Positions 5,341 through 21,257 of a DNA stretch of 21,257 nucleotides are shown one piece after another (position 1 is the stretch's first letter; each line of letters starts with the position of its first letter). The position numbers were made by a program, and so were the translations under genes. This DNA is from a virus, in IMG/VR virus record IMGVR_UViG_3300027513_000051, positions 1 through 21,257 of that record; one strand, given 5' to 3'. Below the pieces are notes generated by a model, which searched no databases, was not told the DNA's origin, and saw nothing but the letters and a program-made list of their open reading frames with translations.

Positions 5341-6180
5341 ATGGCAGATAATATGCACAGAACCAGTTCTGAGGTATCAGTATTAGTTCCTCAGCAATGG
5401 TCTCAAAAATGGTACGAAGTTCTACTTGCTGAACTTCCATTCAATTCTTTGGTGAGCAGAGATTACGAAGGTGAAATCAAACAACTTGGTGACACAGTAA
5501 GAATTTCTACAATCCCAGAATTTGATGAAGCTATCGAATTAGCAGAAGATGCTAAAGCGGATGCTAGCGCTGTAACAGCAACTCAACAATCTTTAGTTAT
5601 CAATAAGAGAATTGTTAAAGACTTTATCGTAACAAGTAAAGCTCAAATGCAATCAATTCCTTTTGTAGATAAATTAAGAGATATGGCTATTTATGCAATT
5701 CAAAAGAAAATGCAAGCCATCATCATTTCTTTAACCGTTCCTTCAGCATCAGCTCCTGATCATCAGATCAGCTATGACTCTGGAACAACTTTAGCACTTG
5801 CTGATATTTTAGAAGCTAAAGAATTAAAAGATGCTCAGAACGTTCCTTTGTCGAACAGACACAGCGTTCTAGGTTCAGCTCAGTTAAACGATGTTTATAA
5901 CATCACTGGCTTTATATCTTCTGATTTCTTAGTTTCTGGTGCGCCTCTTTCAAGTGGTGAGCTTCCTCCTTTGGTAGGTTATATGCCTCACTTCACTACA
6001 GTAGTTGGTAATACCTCTTACTGGTTCCATAGCTCATACTTCACAATGGCTACACAACAAGAATTAGCTATTGGAGAATATGATCTAGGTGTAGACGGTG
6101 TTCGTGGTAAGCGTGTTAACGTAGACGTTCTTGCTGGTTTCTTACAACTAGACAACAAGCGCGTTGTAACCATTTCTTAA
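5341..6180 (+). CDS. Major capsid protein, HK97 fold
   Basis: This is the shell subunit. The 279-residue protein has the compact HK97-type pattern: an N-terminal arm MHRTSSEVSVLVPQQWSQKW, an E-loop-like strand pair LGDTVRISTIP with the following acidic EAIELAEDAKAD, and a spine helix IPFVDKLRDMAIYAIQKKMQ. The A-domain has NRHSVLGSAQLNDVYNI and GYMPHFTTVVGN, and the end strand is KRVNVDVLAGFLQLDNKRVV. There is no cleavable prodomain, in line with a separate scaffold gene upstream. A strong AGGGGG Shine-Dalgarno site at 5326-5331 suits high expression. Cysteine is absent. The exact subfamily (P22-like or gp5-like) cannot be set by eye. Confidence 0.87.
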   Translation: MADNMHRTSSEVSVLVPQQWSQKWYEVLLAELPFNSLVSRDYEGEIKQLGDTVRISTIPEFDEAIELAEDAKADASAVTATQQSLVINKRIVKDFIVTSKAQMQSIPFVDKLRDMAIYAIQKKMQAIIISLTVPSASAPDHQISYDSGTTLALADILEAKELKDAQNVPLSNRHSVLGSAQLNDVYNITGFISSDFLVSGAPLSSGELPPLVGYMPHFTTVVGNTSYWFHSSYFTMATQQELAIGEYDLGVDGVRGKRVNVDVLAGFLQLDNKRVVTIS

Positions 6181-6988: not shown

Positions 6989-7411
6989 GTGGCTGTAGAT
7001 GATCACGGATTAGAAGCTTTAAAAAAAGCTGCTGAAGAAGTAACTCCAGGAAATAAATCTAATTATTATATTAAGGTGGGGAATACCGTAGGTGGCACTG
7101 CCATATCTAACGCTAATCCATTACCAGTTAAACAACAAACTTATGCCACCGCTACAAATACTCGCCCCACTGTCACTACTACTACATCTGTTATTCTAGC
7201 TTCTAATACTAGTCGTAAGAGTGCAGTCATATTTAATCAAAGTGGTGCAGTTGTATATTTAAAATACACGGATGCCGCTGTTGTTGGCCAAGGCATAAGA
7301 CTTCCTAATGATGAGAAACATATAATTGATTCTACTAATTTATTCACTGGAGCTATCCAGGCTATAAGAAATGCTGGATCTGGGGCTGTAGATGTTATGG
7401 AAGGTACATAA
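6989..7411 (+). CDS. Small beta-rich virion protein
   Basis: The GTG start at 6989 is set by the good Shine-Dalgarno site AAAGGAG at 6977-6983. The 140-residue product has a polar, partly helical N-terminus (about 1-55) and a beta domain at 60-140. Its pattern is SVILASNTSRKSAVIFNQSG, then VYLKYTDAAVV, then a G-I-R-L-P strand and FTGAIQAIRNAGSGAVDVME. This 'RKsavIfNqSg ... lyvkyg ... ytGaI.ai...GsG.v.V.e' pattern recurs in small structural proteins of many tailed phages, but their exact place in the virion is not fixed. It ends in a TAATG overlap with the lectin-like gene, so the two may act together, for example as base and tip of a head-associated spike (inference). Confidence 0.5.
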   Translation: MAVDDHGLEALKKAAEEVTPGNKSNYYIKVGNTVGGTAISNANPLPVKQQTYATATNTRPTVTTTTSVILASNTSRKSAVIFNQSGAVVYLKYTDAAVVGQGIRLPNDEKHIIDSTNLFTGAIQAIRNAGSGAVDVMEGT

Positions 7412-8355
7412 TGGCAGTAGCTGATTATATCTATAGATTATTACAGGCTGAGAAAGATGTTACTGATAAGGATGTAAAGATTGATGAGCTATCTTCAACT
7501 TTCGCTTTTATTGGTTTTGCTATAGCTGGTTCTGCTACTAGTGCTGCTGCATGGAAAGTAGCAAGGATATATCGCCAAGGTGATGCCTATACTATCGAAT
7601 ATGCTTCTGGTGGGGGTTATAATCAAATTTGGAATAATAGACAGTCTTTATTCCCAGGCGTATCAATGGCTAATGTTTACTCAGTAAATTTTGATGGAGT
7701 AAACGATATTGTAACTTTTGGAGATAACTTTGATTTTGAACATAACTTGGCTTTCTCAATTTCATTATGGGTTAAACCTAATAACGTTGCTGCTCAAAGA
7801 TGTATGATATCTAAAGTATCAAATGATGCTAACGTTCATGGTTATAGCCTTCAACACTCTGCCACTGGAGCATTATATTTACAGTTAAGAGCCACTGGAG
7901 CATTACTTTCCCCACATATTTTTACTTCAACTTTAACAGCGGGGATTTGGCAGCATGTGGTTTTAACTTATTCAGGATCTTCAAATATAAGTGGAGCTAG
8001 AGCTTATATAAATGCAGTTGTAGGAGATACCCCAGCAAGTGGTGCTCTTTCAGGATCTTGGGGAAACACTAATTTCTTTATCGCTGGTGCGCGTGGACTT
8101 TCTGGGTTTCCTTTTGTTGGTAACATAGATGAAATAAGTATCTGGAATAAAGCTTTATCAGCAGCAGAAGTAAGTGAGCTTTATAATTCTGGTCAACCAG
8201 ATGATTTAAATGGTCACTCTGCCTTCGCTAATCTTTTGTCTTGGTGGCGCATGGGTGATAATGACACTTATCCAACAATTTTAGATAATAAAGGTTCTGT
8301 TAATGGAACTATGACAAATCAAACTAGCGGTGATATTGAAACGGATGTACCATAA
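7411..8355 (+). CDS. Virion protein with LamG/concanavalin-A-like lectin domain
   Basis: The 314-residue product has two parts. The N-terminal part (1-85) contains WKVARIYRQGDAYTIEYAS and NQIWNNRQSLF, a short beta module often seen in phage structural proteins. From about residue 89 there is a LamG-type jelly roll: VNFDGVNDIVTFG, then FSISLWVKP, GIWQHVVLTYSG, ARAYINAVVGD, and VGNIDEISIWNKALSAAEVS followed by ELYNSG, the classical end of this fold. Such domains bind carbohydrate or surface polymers. It is placed among head genes, not with the tail fibres, so it may be displayed on the capsid or neck. Its start overlaps the previous stop (TAATG) and it ends in another TAATG overlap. The domain call is firm; location and ligand are inference. 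Confidence 0.75.
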   Translation: MAVADYIYRLLQAEKDVTDKDVKIDELSSTFAFIGFAIAGSATSAAAWKVARIYRQGDAYTIEYASGGGYNQIWNNRQSLFPGVSMANVYSVNFDGVNDIVTFGDNFDFEHNLAFSISLWVKPNNVAAQRCMISKVSNDANVHGYSLQHSATGALYLQLRATGALLSPHIFTSTLTAGIWQHVVLTYSGSSNISGARAYINAVVGDTPASGALSGSWGNTNFFIAGARGLSGFPFVGNIDEISIWNKALSAAEVSELYNSGQPDDLNGHSAFANLLSWWRMGDNDTYPTILDNKGSVNGTMTNQTSGDIETDVP

Positions 8356-8758: not shown

Positions 8759-10138
8759 ATGCCAATATTCTCACAGTTAGAAAATGAAGATGAAGTTCAA
8801 TTAAAAGATAGAACTCGTTTAGATGGATCAAAAAGCTATAACACCGCTAACCAGCCAGCTTTCTCTAAAATGTATCTTAAACCATGTGAGAATGAGCCTG
8901 TATTTAGCATTTATAATGCTAGCCCCACACTTAGATTCTTAGACTGGGAATATAGAAACTGGGAAATAGATATTGATTCAAGTAATAATAAACTTAATTT
9001 CTCTGAGAGTGGTGTAGAACTAACTGCCACATTAACCTCTGGAACTTATTCTTTATCTGGATTAGCTACTCAAATTCAAACTCAGCTAGATGCTGCTGGA
9101 GCATTAACCTATACTGTTTCAGTAAGTGCAGATGATAAAATTACAATTCTAGCTACTGGAGCTTTTGGATTATTAATTAAAACAGGTGCTAATCGTTATG
9201 TTTCTATTCTTAATCAATTATTTTTTGGAGAAGCTGATCTCTTAGGTAAAGATAGATACACAAGTGATAGAATTGAATACTTAACTCGTAAAGCTACTAT
9301 CTATGTTGGAGAAAATAAGCAGCAAGTTGACTCTGTAACATGCGTTGCAGATGTAGCTGGATCTTTAAATTCTAAATACTTTCTGTTATATTCAGGTGGG
9401 GATGCTACTAAATATTACGTTTGGTATGACGTTGCCTCGGGGGGAACAGATCCATTAATCTCAGGAGCTACGGGGATAGAAGTTGATATATCAGCAGGTG
9501 ATTCTGCTAGTGCTGTTGCTACTGCTACTGCTGCAGCAATCGATGCTCTAGGTGCTTTTATATCTTCTGCTTTATCAGCGGTCGTTACTATCACTCACGC
9601 ATCTAGTGACTGGAATACCCCACCTACTAATGGAAACCTTAGTGGTTTTACTTTCTCAACTACTACTCAAGGTGAGAAGCAAGATTCAGAATCAAATTAC
9701 ATAAAAGTTTATTCAGTGTTAGGTGATAACTTATTTTGCTCTGATGCAGAATTAATGCAATATGAGCCAGATATTAGAAAATGGGTAGCTCCAGGTAGAA
9801 ATTCTTTTTTAAACATTCATAGACAAGCTCAGAAGTATATTCTTGAGAAGCTAGATCAGCATGGATGGAAGAACCTACTAGGTAGAAAATTTAAAAAGAA
9901 AGATATTTTAGATATTGCAGAATTTAAAGCATGGGCCAGATCCAAAGCACTTTCTCTCATTTATGGTGGCATTAAGAACGCCGCTGGTGACGTTTGGTCA
10001 GAAAAAAAGAATCAATATGAGGGTGAAGAAAGACAAGCTAGGAATAAAGCTATGACTAGAATTGATATAGATGAATCTGGAGATCTATACCTAACCGAAG
10101 GTATTGATACTTCAACTATTTTCATGGCTAGAAGGTAA
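8759..10138 (+). CDS. Head-tail adaptor with two inserted beta domains
   Basis: The 459-residue product looks like a normal adaptor (gp6-like head-tail connector) enlarged by two modules. The ends form the adaptor: residues 1-65 and about 315-459. The latter has YSVLGDNLFCSDAELMQYEP, helices IHRQAQKYILEKLDQHGW and EFKAWARSKALSLIYGGIKN, and the ending DIDESGDLYLTEG, all typical of connectors that bind under the portal. Residues about 67-175 are domain A, shared with the distal tail protein at 14064. Residues about 191-306 are domain B, shared with the tail tube at 10596. The position between capsid and tail-terminator genes supports the adaptor role. The Shine-Dalgarno region is AAGGACGGGG (8743-8752). 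The adaptor assignment is inferred from pattern and order; the domain sharing is seen directly. Confidence 0.6.
   Translation: MPIFSQLENEDEVQLKDRTRLDGSKSYNTANQPAFSKMYLKPCENEPVFSIYNASPTLRFLDWEYRNWEIDIDSSNNKLNFSESGVELTATLTSGTYSLSGLATQIQTQLDAAGALTYTVSVSADDKITILATGAFGLLIKTGANRYVSILNQLFFGEADLLGKDRYTSDRIEYLTRKATIYVGENKQQVDSVTCVADVAGSLNSKYFLLYSGGDATKYYVWYDVASGGTDPLISGATGIEVDISAGDSASAVATATAAAIDALGAFISSALSAVVTITHASSDWNTPPTNGNLSGFTFSTTTQGEKQDSESNYIKVYSVLGDNLFCSDAELMQYEPDIRKWVAPGRNSFLNIHRQAQKYILEKLDQHGWKNLLGRKFKKKDILDIAEFKAWARSKALSLIYGGIKNAAGDVWSEKKNQYEGEERQARNKAMTRIDIDESGDLYLTEGIDTSTIFMARR
8957..9283 (+). repeat. Domain A, copy 1 (inside the adaptor gene)
   Basis: It encodes adaptor residues 67-175. 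The conserved core is NNKLNFSESGVELTATLTSG, then TYSLSGLATQIQTQLDAAGA, then TYTVSVS, ending with a GKDRYTSD turn. It aligns in order with copy 2 at 14100. The similarity is at protein level; the DNA has diverged. Confidence 0.75.
9329..9676 (+). repeat. Domain B, copy 1 (inside the adaptor gene)
   Basis: It encodes adaptor residues 191-306. The conserved elements are CVADVAGSLNSKYFLLYSGG, then KYYVWYDVASGGTDP, GATGIEVDISAG, a run of small residues ATATAAAIDAL, and SGFTFSTTTQG. It aligns in order with copy 2 at 10665. Confidence 0.8.
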
Positions 10139-10595: not shown

Positions 10596-11513
10596 ATGGG
10601 ATGTTCTAATCGCGCTGGCAATATAACTATTGAGCCAGTAAAAGTAATATTCGGAAAGTATGAGTGTTCAACAGTCGTCGCTACTGCTGACGTTGCTAGC
10701 TCTCATAATAACGATTATTTTTTCTTATACTCTGCACTTGATGCAGTTAAATACCACGTTTGGATGAACGTAGGTGGTGCGGGTGTTGACCCTGCTCCTG
10801 TAGGATCTACTGGTATTCCAGTAGCATTCGCAGTAAACGCATCTGCTAGCACTGTAGCTTCTGCAATTGCAGCCGCTATTGATGCAGTTTCAGGTGGACC
10901 ATTTGAATCAGAAGCTGATGGAGCAAGTATTTGTATTTGTAACATGCAGCCTGGAAATTCCACAGACGTAGCATCTGGAGTAGGCCTTGCTGGTTTTACT
11001 TACACTGTTAACGTTCAAGGTACATATGATGACCTTGGTTTGTGTGATGGTGATATTGAAGTTTCTCTAGATGAGCAGCTTTTAGATATTACTTCTCATC
11101 AAACTGGAACGGATATCTTGACTTCTATTCGTCAAGGTAAGTCTGCCGAGATTAGCATAACTCTACAAGAAACTCATGTAGCTAACTTAAAGCTTATCTT
11201 AAAACAAGCTGGAGAAGTTTATACTCCTTCTGGTGGTTCTAATGAAGTTGTTGGGTGGGGTACTTCTACCAACTCAATTAACATCATTGATAAAGCTGGA
11301 AAGTTAATTCTACATCCTTATGGACTATCTGCATCAGATAGATCAAGAGATATGGCGTTCTGGCTTGCTCATTTGAAACCAGAATCACTAACTTTCTCAG
11401 GAGAAAATCCAGAAGTTGTTAGTTGCACATTTAAATGTTATACAGATGAAAGCCGTGACACTAGAGCCAATCTATTTGTTAAGGGCGATCATTTACAAAA
11501 CTTTAAAGCGTAA
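10596..11513 (+). CDS. Major tail tube protein with inserted domain B
   Basis: Six-fold rings of this protein build the tail tube. The tube domain is in residues about 143-305: GDIEVSLDEQLLDITSHQTG, then LTSIRQGKSAEISITLQE, a KLILHPYGLSASDRSRDM stretch, and a closing strand EVVSCTFKCYTDES. These match the usual beta-barrel of siphovirus tail tubes. The N-terminal 20 residues (ITIEPVKVIFGKYEC) would be the first strand. It is split from the rest by domain B at about 24-142, which is also present in the adaptor. The extra domain would project from the tube surface in every subunit. The Shine-Dalgarno site is AGGGAGG at 10580-10586. A tail chaperone and tape measure follow, confirming the module. 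Confidence 0.75.
   Translation: MGCSNRAGNITIEPVKVIFGKYECSTVVATADVASSHNNDYFFLYSALDAVKYHVWMNVGGAGVDPAPVGSTGIPVAFAVNASASTVASAIAAAIDAVSGGPFESEADGASICICNMQPGNSTDVASGVGLAGFTYTVNVQGTYDDLGLCDGDIEVSLDEQLLDITSHQTGTDILTSIRQGKSAEISITLQETHVANLKLILKQAGEVYTPSGGSNEVVGWGTSTNSINIIDKAGKLILHPYGLSASDRSRDMAFWLAHLKPESLTFSGENPEVVSCTFKCYTDESRDTRANLFVKGDHLQNFKA
10665..11021 (+). repeat. Domain B, copy 2 (inside the tail tube gene)
   Basis: It encodes tail tube residues 24-142. The conserved elements are TVVATADVASSHNNDYFFLY, then KYHVWMNVGGAGVDP, GSTGIPVAFAV, small residues ASAIAAAIDAV, and AGFTYTVNVQG. Order and spacing agree with copy 1 at 9329. Confidence 0.8.
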
Positions 11514-11807: not shown

Positions 11808-12106
11808 GCGAATTTGATTTAAAAATTGCCAAACTAGTTAGGTTTTACGGGATAGATCCGGAAAGGATTCTGGATCTTCCCGCTAACCTAGTAGATAAAC
11901 TCTGGAGATCTATAGATGTTATAGAAGCTAGGGAGTTACTAAATCAAATGAAGCTAGCAGATTGGCCAAATATGAAAGATTCATCTAGAAAGCCTCTACA
12001 TAAGAAGCTTTATAGTGCTGCATATCCTCATATGATGGAACAAAAGCCAATGACCCTAGATAACCTAGCTAATATTTTAGGTGGTGGGGAAATTATAGAT
12101 GGCTGA
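11553..12106 (+). CDS. Tail assembly chaperone, -1 frameshift fusion (gpGT-like)
   Basis: Predicted product join(11553..11804,11804..12106), 184 residues. Slippage by -1 on A AAA AAC (11798-11804) skips the TAA and continues in an open frame: LSEFDLKIAKLVRFYGIDPE, then RILDLPANLVDKLWRSIDVI, then helical EARELLNQMKLADWPNM, ending ILGGGEIIDG at TGA 12104-12106. That frame has no start codon near its 5' end and would otherwise leave almost 300 unexplained bases, yet it is fully open with phage-like codons. It overlaps the tape measure start by 8 bases, as the T part does in lambda-like phages. In that family the fused C-terminal part helps recruit tail tube subunits. The frameshift is inferred from sequence and not measured. 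Confidence 0.82.
11798..11804 (+). promoter_or_regulatory. Slippery heptamer A AAA AAC for -1 frameshifting
   Basis: The heptamer is in the correct phase (zero-frame codons AAA and AAC) and ends directly before the zero-frame stop TAA. After slipping, both tRNAs re-pair on AAA AAA. A second possible heptamer, A AAA AAA, lies at 11795-11801 within the same run of nine A (11795-11803). Confidence 0.82.
11839..11890 (+). promoter_or_regulatory. Extended imperfect hairpin downstream of the slip site
   Basis: Three nested complementary blocks can pair: TAGGTT (11839-11844) with AACCTA (11885-11890), GGG (11849-11851) with CCC (11879-11881), and AGATCC (11854-11859) with GGATCT (11872-11877). It begins about 34 bases after the slip site, farther than the usual 5-9 bases, so a role in frameshifting is uncertain. 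Confidence 0.3.
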
Positions 12107-14063
12107 TGATAAAATTATAGTAAATGTAGAACCTAAAGTAGATGAGAAAGCTTCTAAGAAAGCTAAAGCAGATCTTGAATCTAGCTTTGATGATCTTGGT
12201 AATAAATTAGATAATTCTGTTAAAAAAGATCTTGAATCAGTTCGTAATGAAGTAAAAGGTTTTGCTAAAGATTTTGCATTAGTAGGTGTTGCTGCTGCTG
12301 GTGTGGCATTAGCTGTTAAAAAAGCTTTTGATTTAAGTGTTGAAGGCGAAAGCATTAAGGCAATAAATAAAGAGTTTGAAGTTTTATCTAAACAAGCAAA
12401 GCTTTCTAGTGAAAATCTTAAAGAATCACTTCTTAGTGCAAGCGGTGGATTAATAGATGATACATCCCTTATACAAGCTGCCAATAGGGCAATCATTGAA
12501 CTTGGAAATAATGCCAAAGTAATTCCTGAAACATTAGAGATCGCTCGTAAAGCCACTGCGGTTTTTGGTGGGGAAGTTGTTCAAAATTTTGAAGCTATAA
12601 ACCAAGCTATAGCCACTGGAAACGTAAGACGCTTAAGAGAAATTGGTATTATCATTGACCAGGATAAAGCTCTTAAAGATTTTGCTAAAACTCAAGGAGT
12701 TTCAGTAGATGCTTTAACAGAAGCTGGTAAAAAACAAGCTATATTAAATGCAGTCCTAGAACAAGGTGCTAAAGCATTTAATGGCGTAGATGTTGATACT
12801 AGAAAATTATCTAATTCAGTTAGCCAACTTAAAACAGCATTTAATGATTTAAATGATTTTATTGCTACAAGTTTTAATAATACATTTAGTCAATCCATAG
12901 CAGGAGCTATTACAGCTGCTAGTAATTCAATTAAAGATTTTACTTTAAGTTTAAAAAAGATGAGTGGAGAGAAACTTTCTATAGATGAAGTTTCTTTTAG
13001 ATTAGAAAATCTTAAAACTCAACTCGCTGCTTTTGAAGCAGGTCCTAAAATTCCAGGTGTAGTTAGTATAGAAGTTCAACTTTTAAGGAAACAAGTATCG
13101 CAAACGGAAGATGAGCTTGAAAAATTAGTTCAAGCAAAAATTAAAGCAGATTCTAGAATGAAATCTCCTATAGATTCAGCTACTTCAAGTGCCACCGCCG
13201 CTCAAAACCCTTTATTTTTTAATCAAGAAAAAGTAAATGCAGATAGAGAGAAAATGCTAACAGCTATTGCTCAGAATAATGCTCAAGTATTAGCTATTCA
13301 GCAGCAAGGACAGAGTGATGAGGGATTTGCTCTTGCTAAAGCATCTGGTGAAAAATTATTAATACTACAACAATATGAAGATCAGAAAGCACAACTTCTT
13401 TTACAGAAAAAACAAGCTCAGGGCGCAAATGAACAGTTATTTGCCGATCAATTAGTCTCTATAGAGAGTGTAAAAAACGCTAGGATTTTACAATTAGAAC
13501 AAAGAGCATCAGAATCAGTTATGGCTATTAGAAAAATAGTCCAATCAAATATCGTCAATGGTTTGACAGCAGCATTTTCACAACTAGGGGCATCTCTAGT
13601 TAAGGGATCAAATGGTTTTGAAGCTATGGGCAAGGCTGTAGTTGCAGCTTTAGGAGCTATGGCAATTCAAATTGGATCTTTAATGGTAGCAACCGGACTA
13701 AGTTTTAAGGCTTTAGCCCCAGTATTACCTATTTTTGGTATATCTGGAGCGGCTGCAGTTATTGCAGGTCTTGGATTAATAGCTTTAGGTGGGGCACTTA
13801 GTGCGAGTGCTGGTGGAGAAGCTGGTTCTCCATCTGGATCTGGTGGCGGGGCAGGGTTTGGAGGGTCTGGAGGTTTTGCAGGCACTGGTGGAGAAGTAGG
13901 TGCTTTAGCTCCAGATCTGGTTCAAAGGGAGAAGGGCACTGTAGTAAACGTAAATATCCAGGGAAATATTTTAGATAGACGACAAACTGGATTAGAAATA
14001 GCTAATATTATTCAAGAGCAGTTTGATACTAATGGTAACTTAATCGCACAAGGTAACTTTTAA
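12099..14063 (+). CDS. Tail tape measure protein
   Basis: This is the ruler around which the tail tube is built; it later enters the host envelope during DNA delivery. The 654-residue protein is mostly helix with coiled-coil stretches (about 15-55 and 400-470). A small hydrophobic patch is at about 56-72 (FALVGVAAAGVALAV). A long hydrophobic part lies at about 505-565 (AMAIQIGSLMVATGLSF, then AAAVIAGLGLIALGGALSAS) and a Gly/Ser-rich stretch near 570-600. No lysozyme or peptidase domain is visible. It starts 8 bases inside the chaperone fusion frame. By the usual rule of about 0.15 nm per residue, the tail would be close to 100 nm, which fits a siphovirus. Cysteine is absent. Confidence 0.87.
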   Translation: MADDKIIVNVEPKVDEKASKKAKADLESSFDDLGNKLDNSVKKDLESVRNEVKGFAKDFALVGVAAAGVALAVKKAFDLSVEGESIKAINKEFEVLSKQAKLSSENLKESLLSASGGLIDDTSLIQAANRAIIELGNNAKVIPETLEIARKATAVFGGEVVQNFEAINQAIATGNVRRLREIGIIIDQDKALKDFAKTQGVSVDALTEAGKKQAILNAVLEQGAKAFNGVDVDTRKLSNSVSQLKTAFNDLNDFIATSFNNTFSQSIAGAITAASNSIKDFTLSLKKMSGEKLSIDEVSFRLENLKTQLAAFEAGPKIPGVVSIEVQLLRKQVSQTEDELEKLVQAKIKADSRMKSPIDSATSSATAAQNPLFFNQEKVNADREKMLTAIAQNNAQVLAIQQQGQSDEGFALAKASGEKLLILQQYEDQKAQLLLQKKQAQGANEQLFADQLVSIESVKNARILQLEQRASESVMAIRKIVQSNIVNGLTAAFSQLGASLVKGSNGFEAMGKAVVAALGAMAIQIGSLMVATGLSFKALAPVLPIFGISGAAAVIAGLGLIALGGALSASAGGEAGSPSGSGGGAGFGGSGGFAGTGGEVGALAPDLVQREKGTVVNVNIQGNILDRRQTGLEIANIIQEQFDTNGNLIAQGNF

Positions 14064-14849
14064 ATGAGCTTGTTATTACCTACATTCTCTAAGTTTTATT
14101 ACAACATCGTAGTTGATGAAAATAATTTTAATTTAGATTTTGATGAAGGTGGAGGGGAACTCACCGCTGAATTAAACCCAGGGGAATATACATTAGAAGG
14201 TATAGCTGATGAAGTTGAACGGGCACTTAATGACGCTGGAGCTTTTACTTATACAGTTACGGCTAATAGAACCACCAGGTTTTTAACTATTTCAGCAGGT
14301 TCTGCATTTACTTTAAGAGTAGCTTCAGGCTCTCATCTAGGAACCTCTGGTTATACTTTAATTGGATTCACCGGGGCTAATAGAACTGGAACTACTACTT
14401 ATACTAGTAATAATGCAGTTGGATCTGTGTATGAGCCTCAATTTAAATTACAAAGTTATATTTCAAGTGATGACTGGCAACAAGCAGCAGATGCTTCTAT
14501 TAATAAAACGGCTAGTGGCAGGGTAGAGGTAGTAAAGTTTGGAACAGAAAAATTCTTTCAATTCAATATTAGCTTTATAACTAACATTAGACAGCCCTGT
14601 AATGGTCCTGTTTTAAATAAAACAACAGGTCTTGAGAATGCTAGAGACTTTATGCAATATGCTACAACACGTTCCCCACTAGAATTTATGCCTAATAAAG
14701 AATCACCTGGAACGTTTTATAAAATATTACTTGAATCTACTCCTGACTATTCCAATGGAACAGGTTATAAGTTAAGAGAATTATATGATAAAAATGCCGC
14801 TGGTTATTTTGAAACTGGCTTACTTAAATGGCGTTTAATAGAAGATTAA
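14064..14849 (+). CDS. Distal tail protein-like, with domain A at its N-terminus
   Basis: The 261-residue protein starts directly after the tape measure stop, the classical place of the distal tail protein (Dit) that ends the tube and holds the baseplate. Residues about 13-116 are domain A, shared with the adaptor. The remainder (about 122-261) shows YEPQFKLQSYIS, GRVEVVKFGTEKFFQFNISF, a long ARDFMQYATTRSPLEFMPN stretch and GYFETGLLKWRLIED, a pattern seen in Dit-like or minor tail proteins whose last strand ends in a Trp-Arg motif. The ribosome site is AAGGTAA at 14050-14056, inside the tape measure gene. The Dit role is inferred from position and size; another minor tail protein is possible. 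Confidence 0.6.
   Translation: MSLLLPTFSKFYYNIVVDENNFNLDFDEGGGELTAELNPGEYTLEGIADEVERALNDAGAFTYTVTANRTTRFLTISAGSAFTLRVASGSHLGTSGYTLIGFTGANRTGTTTYTSNNAVGSVYEPQFKLQSYISSDDWQQAADASINKTASGRVEVVKFGTEKFFQFNISFITNIRQPCNGPVLNKTTGLENARDFMQYATTRSPLEFMPNKESPGTFYKILLESTPDYSNGTGYKLRELYDKNAAGYFETGLLKWRLIED
14100..14411 (+). repeat. Domain A, copy 2 (inside the distal tail protein gene)
   Basis: It encodes residues 13-116. The conserved core is NNFNLDFDEGGGELTAELNP, then EYTLEGIADEVERALNDAGA, then FTYTVTAN, ending GTTTYTSN. It aligns with copy 1 at 8957, with a slightly longer strand region before the final turn. Confidence 0.75.
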
Positions 14850-14863
14850 TTTAGGGGGAACTA

Positions 14864-16555
14864 GTGTCAGTTACTAATGGACAAGTCGCGAATCAAACTA
14901 CATTTAATAATGCTTTCGTATCTAAAACTGAAACAGATCCTTCTGTAAATAAAATTATCGGTGTTGTGGGGATGGAAAATACCACAGATCCAGATTCTGG
15001 TAATGCGATCACTAACGTTCAACAATATCAAAATGAAATAGCAGACGCAGCTGGAGTAGTTGGAACTGATGATGCTACTAGGAAAGTTTATTCTTCTAAT
15101 AACGTTGTAGCTAATGGTGATAATCGCAAAGTAGCTGTTGGGAAATTAGATGCTAAATTTCATAATACCACCGGGCACGCGCATACAGGTGGAGCAGGAG
15201 ATGGCCCACAAATTAGCGCAGCCGATCTAGCAGATTTTAATAATTTTCTTTCTCAATGGCAGACTTTTACTATTAGTCCTGCTGTAGGACTAGATGATGA
15301 TGTTTCTGCTCAGTTAACTGGTAAAGTTTCAGGTGGTAACACTACTACTGCTGGAGTTATTACTACTGGCTCATATAACAAGTGTGAAATTAGATTATTA
15401 TCCACAGATACATTTATAGAAGATGCTGATGGCCAAAGAGTTTATGGAAGATTAACAGAAGCTGCTGGAGTATGGACTTTAACTTATTACACTAATGAAG
15501 CAGGAGTAGAAACTGCTCACACTTTAGCTTCACAAAATATCAGAGTTTACTTTAGAGAAGTATTTACCATGGATACTCGCCCCACCATTCAAGATGATGG
15601 TGGTTTAATCGGCTCACTAGATATGACAGCCGATATTGTTGACGCTAGCCCCACTCAGCGCGGAGTTGTTTCCACAGGATCTCAAAGTTTTGGCGGTCTT
15701 AAAACAAATACAGATGGATTAATTATAGAAGATCATTTTGCTACTCCTAGATCAGATGTAGCTGGTGCTAATCCAATAAATGCTTTGACTTATAACCCTT
15801 TAATTAAAATTACTGGTGCTACTGCTACTTTTATTAACGGTATTACATCTGGAACAGATGGTAAAAGAGTAGTAATTCATAATGGAACTTCTCAAATACT
15901 AACTTTTAATCATCAATCTGGATCAGCAAGTGCTGCTGATAGATTAAAACTTCCTGGATCTATTGCTTTACAAGTAGCTATTGATTCATCTGTTGAATTT
16001 ATTTATGACACTAACCAATCTAGATGGGTTGTAAAATCTGCTGCAGGATCAGGATCTGGTGGGGGATCTGGTGGATCTTTAGAATGGGTAGAAGCTTTAA
16101 GTGCCCCTACTATTGAAGTAGAATATGAGGCTAAAGCTGCACATTTCACCGCTGATGGAGATCAAAACTTATACACTACGATTAAAGTTCCCACATCTTA
16201 TGGAACAGGATCTCCAGTTAAATTAAAACTTTTATTTTACAGTCCTGATAATAGTGGAAATGTGTTCATGCGTTCACAATCTACTTTAATTAGAACTGGA
16301 ACTGATGCTTTCAACTCTACCACAAACCAGAGAACCTCTACAAATACTGAAGCTACCCTCGGAGCTGGAACAGTTGATGAGCCTCAATATGTTGAACTTG
16401 ACCTAACTAGTTCAATCGGAGAGATAAATGCAGTTGCAATTTCTCCAGGAGACCAAATAAAAGTAAGATTATATAGGGATACAGCTAATGAAAGCACCCC
16501 TGCAACAAGTGCAGCACGAGCACAAATTTACCAATCGGAGAGTACATTCACATGA
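14864..16555 (+). CDS. Tail fibre protein
   Basis: A GTG start at 14864 is preceded by AGGGGGA (14853-14859). The 563-residue product begins with SVTNGQVANQTTFNNAFVSK, a pattern I associate with tail-attached ends of phage fibres. It continues with a repeated, beta-rich shaft and contains TGHAHTGGAGDGPQIS at about 103-118. In this fibre-type motif the HxH pair can bind metal in trimers in related fibres. A flexible Gly/Ser linker lies near residue 394-405 (GSGSGGGSGGS). The last 155 residues form a separate beta-sandwich (VKLKLLFYSPDNSG, PQYVELDLTSS, GDQIKVRLYRD) that may be the binding tip. Only one cysteine is present, unlike the next gene. Its TGA overlaps the next ATG. The fibre role is likely and the ligand unknown. 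Confidence 0.65.
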   Translation: MSVTNGQVANQTTFNNAFVSKTETDPSVNKIIGVVGMENTTDPDSGNAITNVQQYQNEIADAAGVVGTDDATRKVYSSNNVVANGDNRKVAVGKLDAKFHNTTGHAHTGGAGDGPQISAADLADFNNFLSQWQTFTISPAVGLDDDVSAQLTGKVSGGNTTTAGVITTGSYNKCEIRLLSTDTFIEDADGQRVYGRLTEAAGVWTLTYYTNEAGVETAHTLASQNIRVYFREVFTMDTRPTIQDDGGLIGSLDMTADIVDASPTQRGVVSTGSQSFGGLKTNTDGLIIEDHFATPRSDVAGANPINALTYNPLIKITGATATFINGITSGTDGKRVVIHNGTSQILTFNHQSGSASAADRLKLPGSIALQVAIDSSVEFIYDTNQSRWVVKSAAGSGSGGGSGGSLEWVEALSAPTIEVEYEAKAAHFTADGDQNLYTTIKVPTSYGTGSPVKLKLLFYSPDNSGNVFMRSQSTLIRTGTDAFNSTTNQRTSTNTEATLGAGTVDEPQYVELDLTSSIGEINAVAISPGDQIKVRLYRDTANESTPATSAARAQIYQSESTFT

Positions 16556-18429
16556 TTATAAAATTAATTTACGGACTTTTTTTAACATCCATTCTAACGT
16601 TTGCAGCTTTAACCGAAGTTGACAGACAAGAGTTTGTTCGCCAAAACATCTTAGACAAATATAATCCTGGGTTTGAAAATGGTAAAGCTAAGTGGACAAA
16701 TAGTGATGGAACATTCGCTTTAGATTCATCTTCTAATATTGGAACAGGACTTCAATCAGGAAGCTTTGATGCTTCTGCTACTACTCAAACTTTAACTTCT
16801 AGCACAGTTTCAATTCCAAAAGCACTTTATGGGCAAAGTTGTTTAGCAAGAATTAAATATAAAGGTGGGGATGCAAACCTTGCTTTTAAAGTAATGGATG
16901 GCTCTAGTAATGTTTTAGCTTCTGAAACTTTATCAGCTAGCACTATTTTTAGACCAGTGGGCTTAAGTTTTGTTTGCCCCACAACAGGATCTTTAAAGCT
17001 ACAAATCTCTTCTACTGCGAACGCCGCAATTATTTATTTAGATGATGCTTACATTGGTGAAAATTTTCAAGTTGCAACCACTCAAGCAATCAGTGAATGG
17101 AAAAATGATTTAACTTTTACAACTTCTGGCTTTGGAACAATTTCTGTTTCAGATTTTCGTTACCAACAAGTTGGTGACAGAATGTTCGTTAAAGGAAGAT
17201 TCACAATTGGAACGGTTGCAGCGGCTGAGGGTTATATTGAATTGCCCACAGGTTTAACTATTAATACAAGCAAAATGAGTTCAAGTGTTCAGGGGACAAA
17301 AGTTGGTGGAATTACTAGAATTACCTCTGGCGCATCTTATGCTTCTCTTGACCACATTTTATTTTACGATGGTTCAACAAACAATCGCGTTTATTACAGT
17401 TTGGCTCCTGATGGCAGCAATGCTTTGGATAAAGATTTAGTCAATGCACAATTTGGTTCAGGTGAAGACGTACAATTTGATTTTGAGGTTCCAATAACTG
17501 AATGGGCCGGCTCAACAAACGCTTTAAGCTTTGATAAAGCTGGTCAATCATGGTCTGGTTATCACGATGCTGATTGCGGGTGGACATTTGGTTCAGCATC
17601 TTTTACGGATGCCGTTTCAGTTGACGCTAGTTGTACTTTTGCAGAAAGAACAAATAGAAATTTTGGAACCGTAACAAGTTACAACGATGGAACACCAGGA
17701 AACAATTACCCTGGGATAACTTTTACTCCAGTTAAAATTGGCTCTTATTATGTTTGCGCAAAACCAGTTGCTTATAACGGAACCGCTAACCAGCAAGGTG
17801 ACTTACAACTTTATGACGGCACCACAGAAATTTCTACGGCTGCCACTCGCCAAGCGGGTTCAACGGTTATGTTTACCACCATCCCAGTTTGTGGAATCTA
17901 CAAAGCCACTTCTGTTGCTGCTAAAAATATATATTTAAGAGGTTCAGTTTATACAACTGGAACTTTAAACATTAATAATAACACTTCAACCGCTGGAAGC
18001 AGAACTGTTGAATGGAGTATTTTCGCTCTAGATCAAGAAATTCCTGCCACAATTTTAAAGGGTGTTGTTGGAACACAATCAACCGTTAGTGAGAGAATTG
18101 AAAGGCTTAGTTTTGGTGAAAGTGGTGGATCAATGGCATCCCCTACGGCTTGCACATCGGCTTCTTGTACTGTTTATTCTCAATCTGGTTCTTGGGTTTC
18201 ATCTATTGCTAGAAATTCTACTGGCGATTATTCTGTAACAATTGCTACTGGAATTTTTGCCAGTGCTCCAACTTGTGTCGCATCAACTTTTGTAGCAGGG
18301 ACAGTTGCTAACTGTGAGTCTTTTGGTTCGGCCACCGCCACCGCAATACCAGTTTTATGCAGACTAAGCAACGGCGTAACTGATTCTGCTGTAAATTTAA
18401 TTTGCATGGGTCCTAAAGGGAGTTTATAA
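16552..18429 (+). CDS. Adhesin/fibre-like protein with an N-terminal signal peptide
   Basis: This 625-residue protein overlaps the fibre gene by ATGA. Residues 1-20 (MIIKLIYGLFLTSILTFAAL) look like a Sec signal peptide with a lysine, a hydrophobic core and possible cleavage near residue 18-20, which is strange for a virion protein made and assembled in the cytoplasm. A carbohydrate-binding-module-like jelly roll follows at about 36-172 (YNPGFENGKAKW, then IIYLDDAYIGENF). Another beta domain lies at 178-320 (WKNDLTFTTSGFGTISV), and further domains run to the end. Twelve cysteines fall into six local pairs (97/142, 342/361, 402/447, 534/539, 575/588, 603/618), as expected for disulfides in an exported protein. 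GATC is much rarer here than in both neighbours. It may have been acquired from a bacterial surface-protein gene. Role as host-binding adhesin is inference. Confidence 0.6.
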   Translation: MIIKLIYGLFLTSILTFAALTEVDRQEFVRQNILDKYNPGFENGKAKWTNSDGTFALDSSSNIGTGLQSGSFDASATTQTLTSSTVSIPKALYGQSCLARIKYKGGDANLAFKVMDGSSNVLASETLSASTIFRPVGLSFVCPTTGSLKLQISSTANAAIIYLDDAYIGENFQVATTQAISEWKNDLTFTTSGFGTISVSDFRYQQVGDRMFVKGRFTIGTVAAAEGYIELPTGLTINTSKMSSSVQGTKVGGITRITSGASYASLDHILFYDGSTNNRVYYSLAPDGSNALDKDLVNAQFGSGEDVQFDFEVPITEWAGSTNALSFDKAGQSWSGYHDADCGWTFGSASFTDAVSVDASCTFAERTNRNFGTVTSYNDGTPGNNYPGITFTPVKIGSYYVCAKPVAYNGTANQQGDLQLYDGTTEISTAATRQAGSTVMFTTIPVCGIYKATSVAAKNIYLRGSVYTTGTLNINNNTSTAGSRTVEWSIFALDQEIPATILKGVVGTQSTVSERIERLSFGESGGSMASPTACTSASCTVYSQSGSWVSSIARNSTGDYSVTIATGIFASAPTCVASTFVAGTVANCESFGSATATAIPVLCRLSNGVTDSAVNLICMGPKGSL

Positions 18430-18433
18430 CCTT

Positions 18434-20674
18434 ATGGCATTTACCATAACTAAGAATGCCAGAATTAAAGCGGAGAGAAATAATATCTCTCCTAACCTGG
18501 TATTCAAAATAGATGGGTTAGATACTCTTTATGGATTACAAATCATTAAAAAATATATTCGCATCGGTGATCCTGGGCTTTTTATCGGCAGTGATTGGGT
18601 TATTGGTGGCCTTCGCTCAGCTAGTGATCAAGTAACTAATATTACCTTTGAAGGAACTACTACTCAGATTAATCAAAAACTAGATCCTGATAAAGCATCA
18701 GGCGCGACTATTTCCACCATGGATATAGCCTTAATAGATATTGATGGAAGTGTTTCAGATCTAGTGTCACCCGGTGTAGAGTTACCAGATATCTTAGGTC
18801 GTAAGGCTAAAGTATTTTTAGGTTTTGCAGATACAGCTTGGCCAGAAGATTATATAACTATTTTTCGTGGAATTATAGATCAAGTGGATGTGGGCACTGC
18901 TAAGATGACTTTTAAGTTATCGCATCCTGATCAAAAAAAACGTCAAGATATTTTTGTTAAAGGGGATACTGAATTAAATGGAGCTATTGATAATGTTGTC
19001 ACTACTATTACGGTTGACTCTACCGCAGACTTTTTTTCTAGAGTGCTTGGCCCTGACGGAGTTTCTTATGATTCTAATATTAAATATGGGGTCAGAATAG
19101 ATGATGAAATTATTTTCTTTACAGGAAAGACTGGCACTACTTTTACTGGTTGCACTCGTGGGGCTTTGGGCACTACTGCCGCTAGTCACTCTGATAATGC
19201 TGCTGTTTCTTCTTTTTACAATCTAACTGGAAACTCTATTGATCTAGCACTTAAACTCTACTTCTCAGGGAGACAAGGTCCATGGGTAGAGGATATTGAA
19301 GTAAAACATATTAACCAACTCGGGGATCTAAGTTTTATTCAAAATGCTTTATTCTTCGATGGAGTAGATATTCAAAATGAATACGGCATATCGATTAATG
19401 ATTACGTTACTATTACTGGTGCTACTAATGGCGCTAATGATGTTACTAGAACTGTTGATCTAATTGAAAAAACAGATGAAGGATCTTACTTAATTTTAAG
19501 TGGGGCTAATCTAATCTCAGAGAATGATTCTCCAGCAGAGGTTTCTTTTAGATCTCAGTATGACACTCTAGCTGATGGATTAAGATTTGATGGTGATGAG
19601 GTAGACGTAGTAGAGCATGAGAGAATTAAGAGAATATTCTTATCCTCTCATGAACAAGATTTTCGTTTAAAAGATACTATTCAGGGTAAAGACTTTATTG
19701 AAGAGCAGATATTATTTCCTGCAGCAGCTTACTCTCTACCTAGAAAATCTCAATCAAGTCTTGGCTATCACATAGGTCCTATTCCAGGAGTAGATCCTAA
19801 AATCTTTACCTCAGCTAATGCTAAGAATGCTTCACAAGTTAAGATCTCCAGATCCATTAATAAGAATTTTTATAACACTATTGTCTATAGATATGACGAA
19901 AGTTTATTAGAGGATGCTAAGTTCACTGGTGGATATATAACCACTGATGCTACCTCTAAAACAGAGATCCCAGTAGGAACCCGCGCTTTAGTTATTACAG
20001 CTAAAGGGATGCGTTCAACTTTAAGCGCACTAAATCTAGCCACTACTGCGGCCGCTCGTAGATTAAAGAGATATAAACGCGGAGCAGAATACATTTCACA
20101 ATTTGAAGTCCTTTATGGGGATTCTTATAACATTGAGATTGGTGATATAATCATAATTGATACCTCTGATTTAAAGATGCTAGACACAAAGCTGGCCACC
20201 AGGTCAGGGGATCCAAAATTATACGAGATTATTAATAAAACTTTTGATATAAAAACAGGTGGGGTAAAATTAGAACTTGTCGACACCAACTATTCTACCA
20301 ATACACGATACTGTCTAATTTCCCCATCTAGCCGAATTGAAACAGGTGGAACCACAACTAAATTTAAATTAAAAGTAGATACTAATAACCCTTATGGAAT
20401 AGATGAGGGTAAAAAATGGTCTAGATATATTGGTGCTACTATAAGAGTTAGATCAGATGACTTTACTACTAGAAACGATACGTCTACAATTTTAAGCGTT
20501 AGTGGTAATACCATTACACTAGATTCGGCTTTATCATTTACCCCACAGGACAATGATACTATGACGTTTAGTGTTTATGATGATTCTAATGATACTTTAA
20601 AACTCATCTACGGATGGATGAGAAATTTAGATTTCTTCGCAGACGGCAAGAAACGTTATGAAATGATCGGTTAA
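18434..20674 (+). CDS. Baseplate hub/tail tip protein
   Basis: The 746-residue protein is probably the central tail hub (Tal-like) to which the distal tail protein and fibres attach. The N-terminal 175 residues form a mixed alpha/beta part (LVFKIDGLDTLYGLQI, SGATISTMDIALIDIDG, EDYITIFRGIIDQVDV) like the start of hub proteins, with the phrase FRGIIDQVDV typical of the first hub domain. A small inserted beta module at about 178-262 shows TTITVDSTADF, VRIDDEIIFFTG and TFTGCTRGALGTTAASHSDN, a widespread phage tail motif. The next part (about 265-620) returns to hub-like sequence, and a further small beta domain lies near 630-720. No peptidoglycan hydrolase is evident. A GGGAG site lies at 18418-18422. 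The assignment is by pattern and position at the end of the tail module. Confidence 0.6.
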   Translation: MAFTITKNARIKAERNNISPNLVFKIDGLDTLYGLQIIKKYIRIGDPGLFIGSDWVIGGLRSASDQVTNITFEGTTTQINQKLDPDKASGATISTMDIALIDIDGSVSDLVSPGVELPDILGRKAKVFLGFADTAWPEDYITIFRGIIDQVDVGTAKMTFKLSHPDQKKRQDIFVKGDTELNGAIDNVVTTITVDSTADFFSRVLGPDGVSYDSNIKYGVRIDDEIIFFTGKTGTTFTGCTRGALGTTAASHSDNAAVSSFYNLTGNSIDLALKLYFSGRQGPWVEDIEVKHINQLGDLSFIQNALFFDGVDIQNEYGISINDYVTITGATNGANDVTRTVDLIEKTDEGSYLILSGANLISENDSPAEVSFRSQYDTLADGLRFDGDEVDVVEHERIKRIFLSSHEQDFRLKDTIQGKDFIEEQILFPAAAYSLPRKSQSSLGYHIGPIPGVDPKIFTSANAKNASQVKISRSINKNFYNTIVYRYDESLLEDAKFTGGYITTDATSKTEIPVGTRALVITAKGMRSTLSALNLATTAAARRLKRYKRGAEYISQFEVLYGDSYNIEIGDIIIIDTSDLKMLDTKLATRSGDPKLYEIINKTFDIKTGGVKLELVDTNYSTNTRYCLISPSSRIETGGTTTKFKLKVDTNNPYGIDEGKKWSRYIGATIRVRSDDFTTRNDTSTILSVSGNTITLDSALSFTPQDNDTMTFSVYDDSNDTLKLIYGWMRNLDFFADGKKRYEMIG

Positions 20675-20686
20675 GGAGAATATAAA

Positions 20687-21150
20687 ATGGCAGATATAGT
20701 TAGTAATGCAGCGAAAATGAATGATCTTGAAATCAGTGCAGATGCACCGATCACAGAAGACTTATTTGAAAAAATAGGCGCGAACATTAACTATCTTTTA
20801 GATCTTGCTGCTCTAGGGGTAACTACTTATCTGGTTAACGGATCTTACACTGTAGCTGAAGGTCAAAATAGAATCTTAGTTAAAATGTGTGGCGGTGGCG
20901 GCGGGGGCGGTGCTGGCGGAGCTAACGGCCCAGCTGGAGGCGGTGCTGGTGGGGCAGGTGGATCAGTTTTAGAAACTATGCTCAACGTAACTCCATTAGA
21001 TGTTCACGCTGTAACAATAGGAATTGGTGGGGTAGGTGCAGGAGCTAACGGTGGCACTGGCACTGGCGGAACTGGTTCAGCTGGAACAGATACTACTTTC
21101 GGAATAATCGCGACTGCTAAGGGCGGAGCTCCAGGAACTGGTGGCCAAGG
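20687..21150 (+). CDS. Glycine-rich tail tip adhesin, 3' end lost at a chimeric join
   Basis: The genuine part runs to about residue 150. Residues 1-45 form a helical attachment segment ([20 protein letters not shown]). Then comes [20 protein letters not shown] leading into GGGGGGGAGG and further Gly-rich loops, a conserved [15 protein letters not shown] strand and [13 protein letters not shown]. This is the well-known glycine-rich tip domain of phage fibres, where Gly-rich loops pack as polyglycine sheets and the loops between them bind the host receptor. The frame stays open to 21253, but everything after about 21150 is GC-rich DNA from another genome, so those last 30-odd residues (Arg/Pro-rich) are artificial. 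The Shine-Dalgarno site is AAGGAG at 20673-20678. The real C-terminus is not in this window. Confidence 0.7.
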
Positions 21151-21257
21151 CCGGCGCCCTCGGCGGCGCCCTCGATCAGGCCGGGGATGTCGGCCACCAC
21201 GAAGCTCGCTTCGCCGACGCGCACCATGCCCAGGGAAGGCGCGAGGGTGGTGAACGG
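21132..21257 (-). CDS. obg: Fragment of bacterial GTPase Obg (foreign, chimeric end)
   Basis: Read on the minus strand from 21257, the sequence encodes [20 protein letters not shown] and then [18 protein letters not shown], continuing HQFL down to about 21132. This is the switch region of the Obg/CgtA G-domain: the G2 threonine in PFTT and the G3 motif DIPG, both intact. Obg is an essential, ribosome-associated bacterial GTPase and has no place in a phage tail module. The stretch is strongly GC-rich with G/C at nearly all third codon positions, quite unlike the AT-rich phage. The frame breaks off upstream of 21132, where the phage sequence takes over. Residues HQFL after GLG recall proteobacterial Obg proteins, but the species cannot be named. 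Confidence 0.85.

Follow-up and report, generated by a model that had tools for sequence, protein, structure and literature searches.

The window, which is the whole stretch of DNA analysed here (21,257 bases), is a viral-contig fragment on which a terminase gene, head genes and a tail module are all read in the same direction. The capsid protein is encoded at 5341-6180 and the tape measure at 12099-14063. Behind the tape measure gene, on the + strand, lie genes for a distal-tail-type protein (14064..14849; 42% identity to a gene on the Bdellovibrionota contig L060), a fibre (14864..16555), an adhesin of 625 aa (16552..18429) and a tail-tip protein (18434..20674; 34% identity to L060 over 540 aa, with a PHROG tail fibre match). 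The fibre has no signal peptide. Its stop codon, TGA at 16553-16555, shares bases with the adhesin ATG at 16552-16554, so that the two genes overlap by ATGA inside the tail module, as an earlier preliminary description of this DNA had noted. The C-terminal domain of the fibre, here called type A (16163..16552, + strand; alignment A3; 39 type A pairs; AF2 pLDDT 90), is the proposed dock for the adhesin; a Foldseek search of the PDB with this domain found nothing at E <= 0.001. Among the head genes, the product of 7411-8355 contains a LamG/ConA-like lectin domain (Pfam Laminin_G_3, E 1e-22) and is perhaps a capsid decoration. A similar stretch is inserted in the products of 8759-10138 (..YFLLYSGGDATKYYVWYDV..) and 10596-11513 (..YFFLYSALDAVKYHVWMNV..), which looks as if a domain had been copied between the two genes. 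The last ORF of the window (20687-21253) has a Gly_rich_2 start, followed at the contig end by an Arg/Pro-rich stretch that is probably frameshifted or of low quality.

The adhesin opens with an n-h-c Sec signal peptide and a signal peptidase I site, residues 1-18 (MIIKLIYGLFLTSILTFA^A; 16552..16605, + strand). The N-terminus, MIIKLIYGLFLTSILTFA^ALTEVDR, has one lysine, an uncharged hydrophobic core and a predicted T-F-A cleavage site. Signal peptide calls throughout this work, including this one, were made with a purpose-written rule-based caller, not SignalP. An internal start that would give a form lacking the signal peptide was looked for by eye, and no ATG, GTG or TTG was present just after the signal peptide in the window. 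The adhesin has 12 cysteines, at residues 97, 142, 342, 361, 402, 447, 534, 539, 575, 588, 603 and 618, which form six consecutive pairs and amount to 1.92 per 100 aa. The remaining called genes of the window hold 32 cysteines in 6040 aa, and against this background the binomial probability of at least 12 in 625 aa is 1.7e-4. The adjoining fibre has one cysteine, and the capsid protein and the tape measure have none. The signal peptide, the six neighbouring pairs and the contrast in cysteine content had all been pointed out in the preliminary description, and each holds up. Both the signal peptide and the cysteine richness recur across the family described below and are not one-sequence accidents. 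Export of the window adhesin by the infected cell, which had been suggested as one option, is almost certain.

The mature N-terminus, ALTEVDRQEFVRQNILDKY (16606..16662), is of type A and is the proposed fibre-docking segment; like the domains that follow, it is encoded on the + strand. Residues 30-173 (16639..17070) form a CBM4/16/22/61-like beta-sandwich (AF2 block pLDDT mostly 67-93; Foldseek 8XMZ, E 7e-6, TMt 0.75). The variable middle module, residues 174-329 (17071..17538), is common to L005, L020, L021 and L031 by alignment and hhalign, and is modelled with low confidence; by the same two methods, its slot holds a Bd2734-like module in other relatives. Residues 330-495 (17539..18036), with four cysteines, make up a TNF/C1q-like module (hhalign 99% to the module matching 8OKW; Foldseek 8OKW, TMt 0.75, E 2.4e-6). 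The best single-domain structural match for this segment is thus 8OKW, the Bd2734 tip of Bdellovibrio; each Foldseek match was assigned to its domain by length and profile, an assignment of our own. Two of the four cysteines, C342 and C361, align with cysteines of the Bd2734 tip via the related module in other family members. The C-terminal domain, residues 510-625 (18079..18426), contains six cysteines and, by alignment, ends in the family motif C(M/I/V)GPK. The AlphaFold model of the whole protein has a mean pLDDT of 73, with three confident parts. Searched by itself, the window protein had no relative in Pfam, PHROGs or INPHARED and, with phmmer, no match in the PDB; the PDB match came from the family profile alone (8OKW, E 4.4e-16), through the module homologous to window residues 330-495 (hhalign 99%). 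That the protein is a multidomain protein of the adhesin type is supported.

The first relatives were three proteins at about 33% identity in viral contigs, and their alignment led to 27 loci and to one on a contig of a Bdellovibrionales MAG. In the relatives found from the adhesin side, a signal peptide can be recognised at the start of each reading frame, the domains behind it vary, and Ala or Gly stands at the presumed cleavage site in all of those aligned. Because these scans relied on adhesin patterns, the search was repeated from the fibre gene. The compiled set, drawn from uncultured viruses, a Bdellovibrionales MAG and phage phi1422, comprises 53 fibre/adhesin pairs, all non-redundant. 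The adhesin has a signal peptide in 51 of the 53, the phi1422 pair gp67/gp68 included (49 by the fixed rule, L076 and L106 by eye), and lacks one in L071 and L075 alone; the same loose rule scores 24 of 202 upstream genes, many via internal start codons. The gap from fibre to adhesin is -26 to +24 in 52 of the pairs. The exception is L017, where a GIY-YIG-like homing endonuclease gene (L017:5199-6008) lies between the two. Adhesins contain 1.71 cysteines per 100 aa vs 0.26 for the fibres (53 pairs, Wilcoxon 6e-10). Several adhesins with signal peptides (L085, L092, L096, L099 and L104) have few cysteines or none, which rules out disulfides as the sole reason for export. About 50 divergent phages belong to the family as a whole, with tails of several types and with identities mostly of 22-39%. 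In a deposited podovirus (L113:5101-7854; MW202898.1, UOF83102.1) an internal Met yields a signal peptide; the annotated start is probably too early, which would give this podovirus the same kind of adhesin. In the part of the literature covered, no report of tailed-phage fibres bearing signal peptides was found.

The fibres that lack a signal peptide are, by context, virion proteins. The fibre N-termini of L003, L008, L011 and L025 match PHROG tail or tail-fibre families (best E 2e-40) and have no signal peptide, the fibres of L012 and L026 lie behind Baseplate_J, and that of L031 lies behind a lambda gpJ-like protein. Since these contexts differ, the fibre/adhesin unit is used across different tail types. 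By rule, 14 of the 53 fibres themselves have a signal peptide (L099 doubtful), always together with one on the adhesin and never on the fibre alone. Fibres with a signal peptide contain 0.54 cysteines per 100 aa vs 0.17 for those without (p = 0.0009), a difference to be expected if the signal peptide does direct proteins into an oxidising compartment. At L020:4140-7695 and L027:1534-4792, a fibre-type gene without a signal peptide is followed by three to four consecutive ones that all have it. The export boundary thus appears to move along the fibre chain, and where the fibre also has a signal peptide the virion anchor would be less clear. L071 has five genes in common with the window and agrees with it in fibre type and in the overlap, and its adhesin begins at a mature-type N-terminus. 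An adhesin without a signal peptide in the same slot implies that the role can be filled from the cytoplasm, without export.

Used alone as a query, the type A fibre domain (alignment A3) found 42 loci. Wherever sequence continues past the fibre, an adhesin gene of this family comes next, either overlapping the fibre gene or no more than 24 bases behind it, with L078 as the sole exception; L102 ends at the fibre and contributes no downstream gene to this count. A second fibre C-terminal domain, type B, was found at seven loci, all followed by an adhesin with a PPTT-type start after the signal peptide. In two of the type B adhesins, L116 and L118, the N-terminus is kept and the distal parts are quite different; L124 and L127, which were reached through their adhesins, add two more loci with a type B fibre upstream. 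When types were assigned by eye from the sequences, fibre type and adhesin type (the segment right after the signal peptide) were never mixed, 39:0 vs 0:9 (Fisher 6e-10), and the same fibre C-terminal type occurs on fibres with quite different N-termini. At the level of types, then, the N-terminus of the adhesin and the fibre C-terminus go together, as they do in gp38 and its fibre; the matched segments adjoin, and linkage could contribute to the match or, as co-inheritance, could alone keep the types together.

The adhesin family is linked to phages of predatory Bdellovibrio-type bacteria. The strongest host evidence is phi1422, a phage that was isolated with Bdellovibrio bacteriovorus as its host and has been described as lytic (PMC3391216). 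Its tail fibre gp67 is followed, after one base, by gp68 (YP_007007147.1, 'hypothetical protein'), which has 614 aa, a signal peptide and 8 cysteines and whose gene sits between the fibre and holin-like genes. The gp68 protein matches the family profile over its N-terminal half (E 1.4e-15) and is 35% identical to the L061 adhesin over 282 aa; it resembles the window adhesin in its slot behind the fibre, its signal peptide and its cysteines, and differs in its other distal domains and in belonging to a myovirus. A second, small protein with a signal peptide, gp75 (L128:44298-44810), is encoded in the phi1422 region past the fibres. Of 369 genomes from Bdellovibrionota, the phylum to which the Bdellovibrionales MAG belongs, 23 contain an adhesin match. 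On contigs from two of these (L058 and L061) the gene for an adhesin with a signal peptide immediately follows a fibre gene and is surrounded by phage structural genes, and a 10-kb contig from a third genome (L060) has four structural genes in common with the window, at up to 42% identity. The type A fibre domain has no match in the 369 genomes, so the host of the type A phages rests on the structural genes shared with L060 and on the other members of the family. The long matches inspected in these genomes adjoin phage genes. Two host chromosomal proteins of 188 aa (L059:9220-9786 and L062:8951-9517), in non-phage surroundings, have a signal peptide and the C-terminal domain of the phage adhesins. 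In four phages of the phiPLPE group that are related to phi1422 and have other hosts (Aeromonas, Vibrio, Pectobacterium and Iodobacter), 22 genes for tail and baseplate proteins were examined, and none has a signal peptide.

The arrangement is like that of gp38 on gp37 in T2, S16 and PP01, where a separate adhesin gene lies directly behind the fibre gene and the adhesin has a matched N-terminus and a variable distal part. Unlike gp38, the adhesins of the window family are rich in cysteine and have CBM/TNF-like domains instead of a poly-glycine sandwich. To our knowledge, gp38 has no signal peptide, and the signal peptide is what is new relative to the gp37-gp38 arrangement. Neither sequence homology to gp38 nor a poly-glycine type II sandwich was found in the window adhesin, which falls in no Pfam or PHROG family and has CBM- and TNF-like model folds; for this reason we say that it works like, not that it is, a gp38. 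The gp38 of phage SD286 was set aside as a relative of T2 gp38, having only the gene number in common. In T2-type phages, where the N-terminus of gp38 must match gp37, a mismatched gp38 does not function unless its N-terminal 113 residues are swapped (PMC12892980). Bd2734 belongs to the mosaic adhesive trimer (MAT) surface fibres that Bdellovibrio uses on prey (PMC10769870). The window adhesin is like Bdellovibrio bacteriovorus Bd2734 (PDB 8OKW) in having a signal peptide, a homologous TNF-like module with aligned cysteines and an adhesin role, but the module is internal in the window adhesin and a terminal tip in Bd2734. MATs are host genes with a conserved beta-rich N-terminal domain of ~130 aa after the signal peptide. 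A BLAST comparison of the N-terminal 400 aa of one host MAT-like protein with 25 phage adhesins found no match; because this part has no phage counterpart, the phage adhesins are not MATs, but they have the same kind of tip. Lambda Lom is a protein with a signal peptide encoded in the tail-fibre region (PMC12309495). It is an outer-membrane beta-barrel, unpaired with a fibre C-terminus and without adhesive beta-sandwich modules; for the window adhesin, AF2 and Foldseek give beta-sandwich domains and no such barrel. PblA and PblB of Streptococcus mitis phage SM1 are tail proteins with an adhesin function outside the cell; they have no signal peptide and are released by lysis. The window adhesin is like them in being a phage tail-region protein with a proposed adhesin activity and unlike them in having a signal peptide.

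Assembly of tailed-phage virions is generally regarded as an entirely cytoplasmic process, and we know of no tailed phage with a Sec-exported protein shown attached to the virion. From the signal peptide, the cysteine content, the synteny, the domain homologies and the matched types, we propose, at a probability of about one half, that the adhesin is the distal receptor-binding protein of the fibre, like gp38, but acquires its fold and its disulfides in the periplasm and is added to the virion fibre when the cell lyses. Late in infection, the two overlapping genes, for fibre and adhesin, would be expressed together. The fibre would stay in the cytoplasm and become part of the tail, while the adhesin would be exported by Sec, lose its signal peptide, and fold and form disulfides in the periplasm. 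Lysis would mix the compartments, the adhesin would dock on the virion fibre, and its CBM-like and TNF/C1q-like domains would attach to glycans on the surface of the next cell to be infected. Export of the adhesin is strongly supported; cleavage, disulfides, docking, presence in the virion and the receptor we infer. Export, periplasmic folding and docking at lysis make up the simplest model that fits all the observations. Against it, linkage could hold the types together, the fibre has a signal peptide in about 13 pairs, and some adhesins are poor in cysteine. The preliminary description had offered a choice between an exported factor at the host surface and a captured fibre; the export stands, but that choice omits the option favoured here, a protein that is exported and then becomes the fibre tip.

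The main rival to the gp38-like reading is that the adhesin is secreted or displayed at the surface and never joins the particle, which is possible. It might coat or mask the receptors of the infected cell, to control superinfection and to reduce the loss of progeny on debris, or it might alter what a lysogenic predator sticks to, like lambda Lom or a phage-borne fibre of the host type. Such a role is in keeping with the signal peptide, with the module in common with the surface fibre Bd2734 and with the host signal peptide proteins that carry the same C-terminal domain; Lom provides a precedent for a signal peptide protein in a tail-fibre region (PMC12309495), matches lie beside phage genes on long contigs of bacterial assemblies, and some fibres carry signal peptides too. 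It leaves the matched types unexplained, the segment after the signal peptide matching the type of a fibre that is usually without one. Further, the host-type fibre that was read has a different N-terminal part, which is absent in the phage adhesins, phi1422 is lytic with its gp68 gene placed as described above, and the adhesins of L071 and L075 keep the same slot without a signal peptide. A second alternative, which we consider unlikely, is that the hydrophobic segment at the N-terminus does not work in export but anchors to the tail a protein that stays in the cytoplasm as an ordinary fibre. Phage fibres are normally cytoplasmic and the cleavage is a prediction, but a positive start, a hydrophobic core and an A-x-A type site are found repeatedly in proteins that have diverged widely and differ in the domains that come next, the cysteine content is high, and the relatives without a signal peptide, L071 and L075, begin about where the mature protein would. 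A tail anchor at the N-terminus was also what the preliminary description had set against export; the signal peptide segment is probably not that anchor, and it is the segment following it that looks like the docking part. Finally, that a host surface-fibre gene was captured recently and turned into a fibre in the window phage only, as had been suggested, is very improbable: homology to the Bd2734 tip and to the two host signal peptide proteins upholds a link to bacterial surface proteins, but the arrangement recurs in the divergent phages of the family, about 50 in number, and in lytic phi1422, and the long matches inspected in the 369 genomes adjoin phage genes, host genes matching over single domains only.

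The gp38-like reading can be widened, tentatively, to the tailed phages of Bdellovibrio-type hosts, which may finish the virion outside the cytoplasm; Sec-exported distal fibre proteins would mature in the periplasm and be fitted at lysis, with the start point of export differing between phages. Because phi1422 and its host are cultured and the same gene pair is present, the adhesin idea is testable at once. If it is true, part of the tailed-phage particle passes through the periplasm and its tips are stabilised by disulfides, and phage and predator adhesins are connected through shared domains. A likely function is thereby offered for the 'hypothetical' gp68 of phi1422, and there would be a means to recognise the receptor-binding proteins of the phages of predatory bacteria, few of which have been isolated and sequenced.
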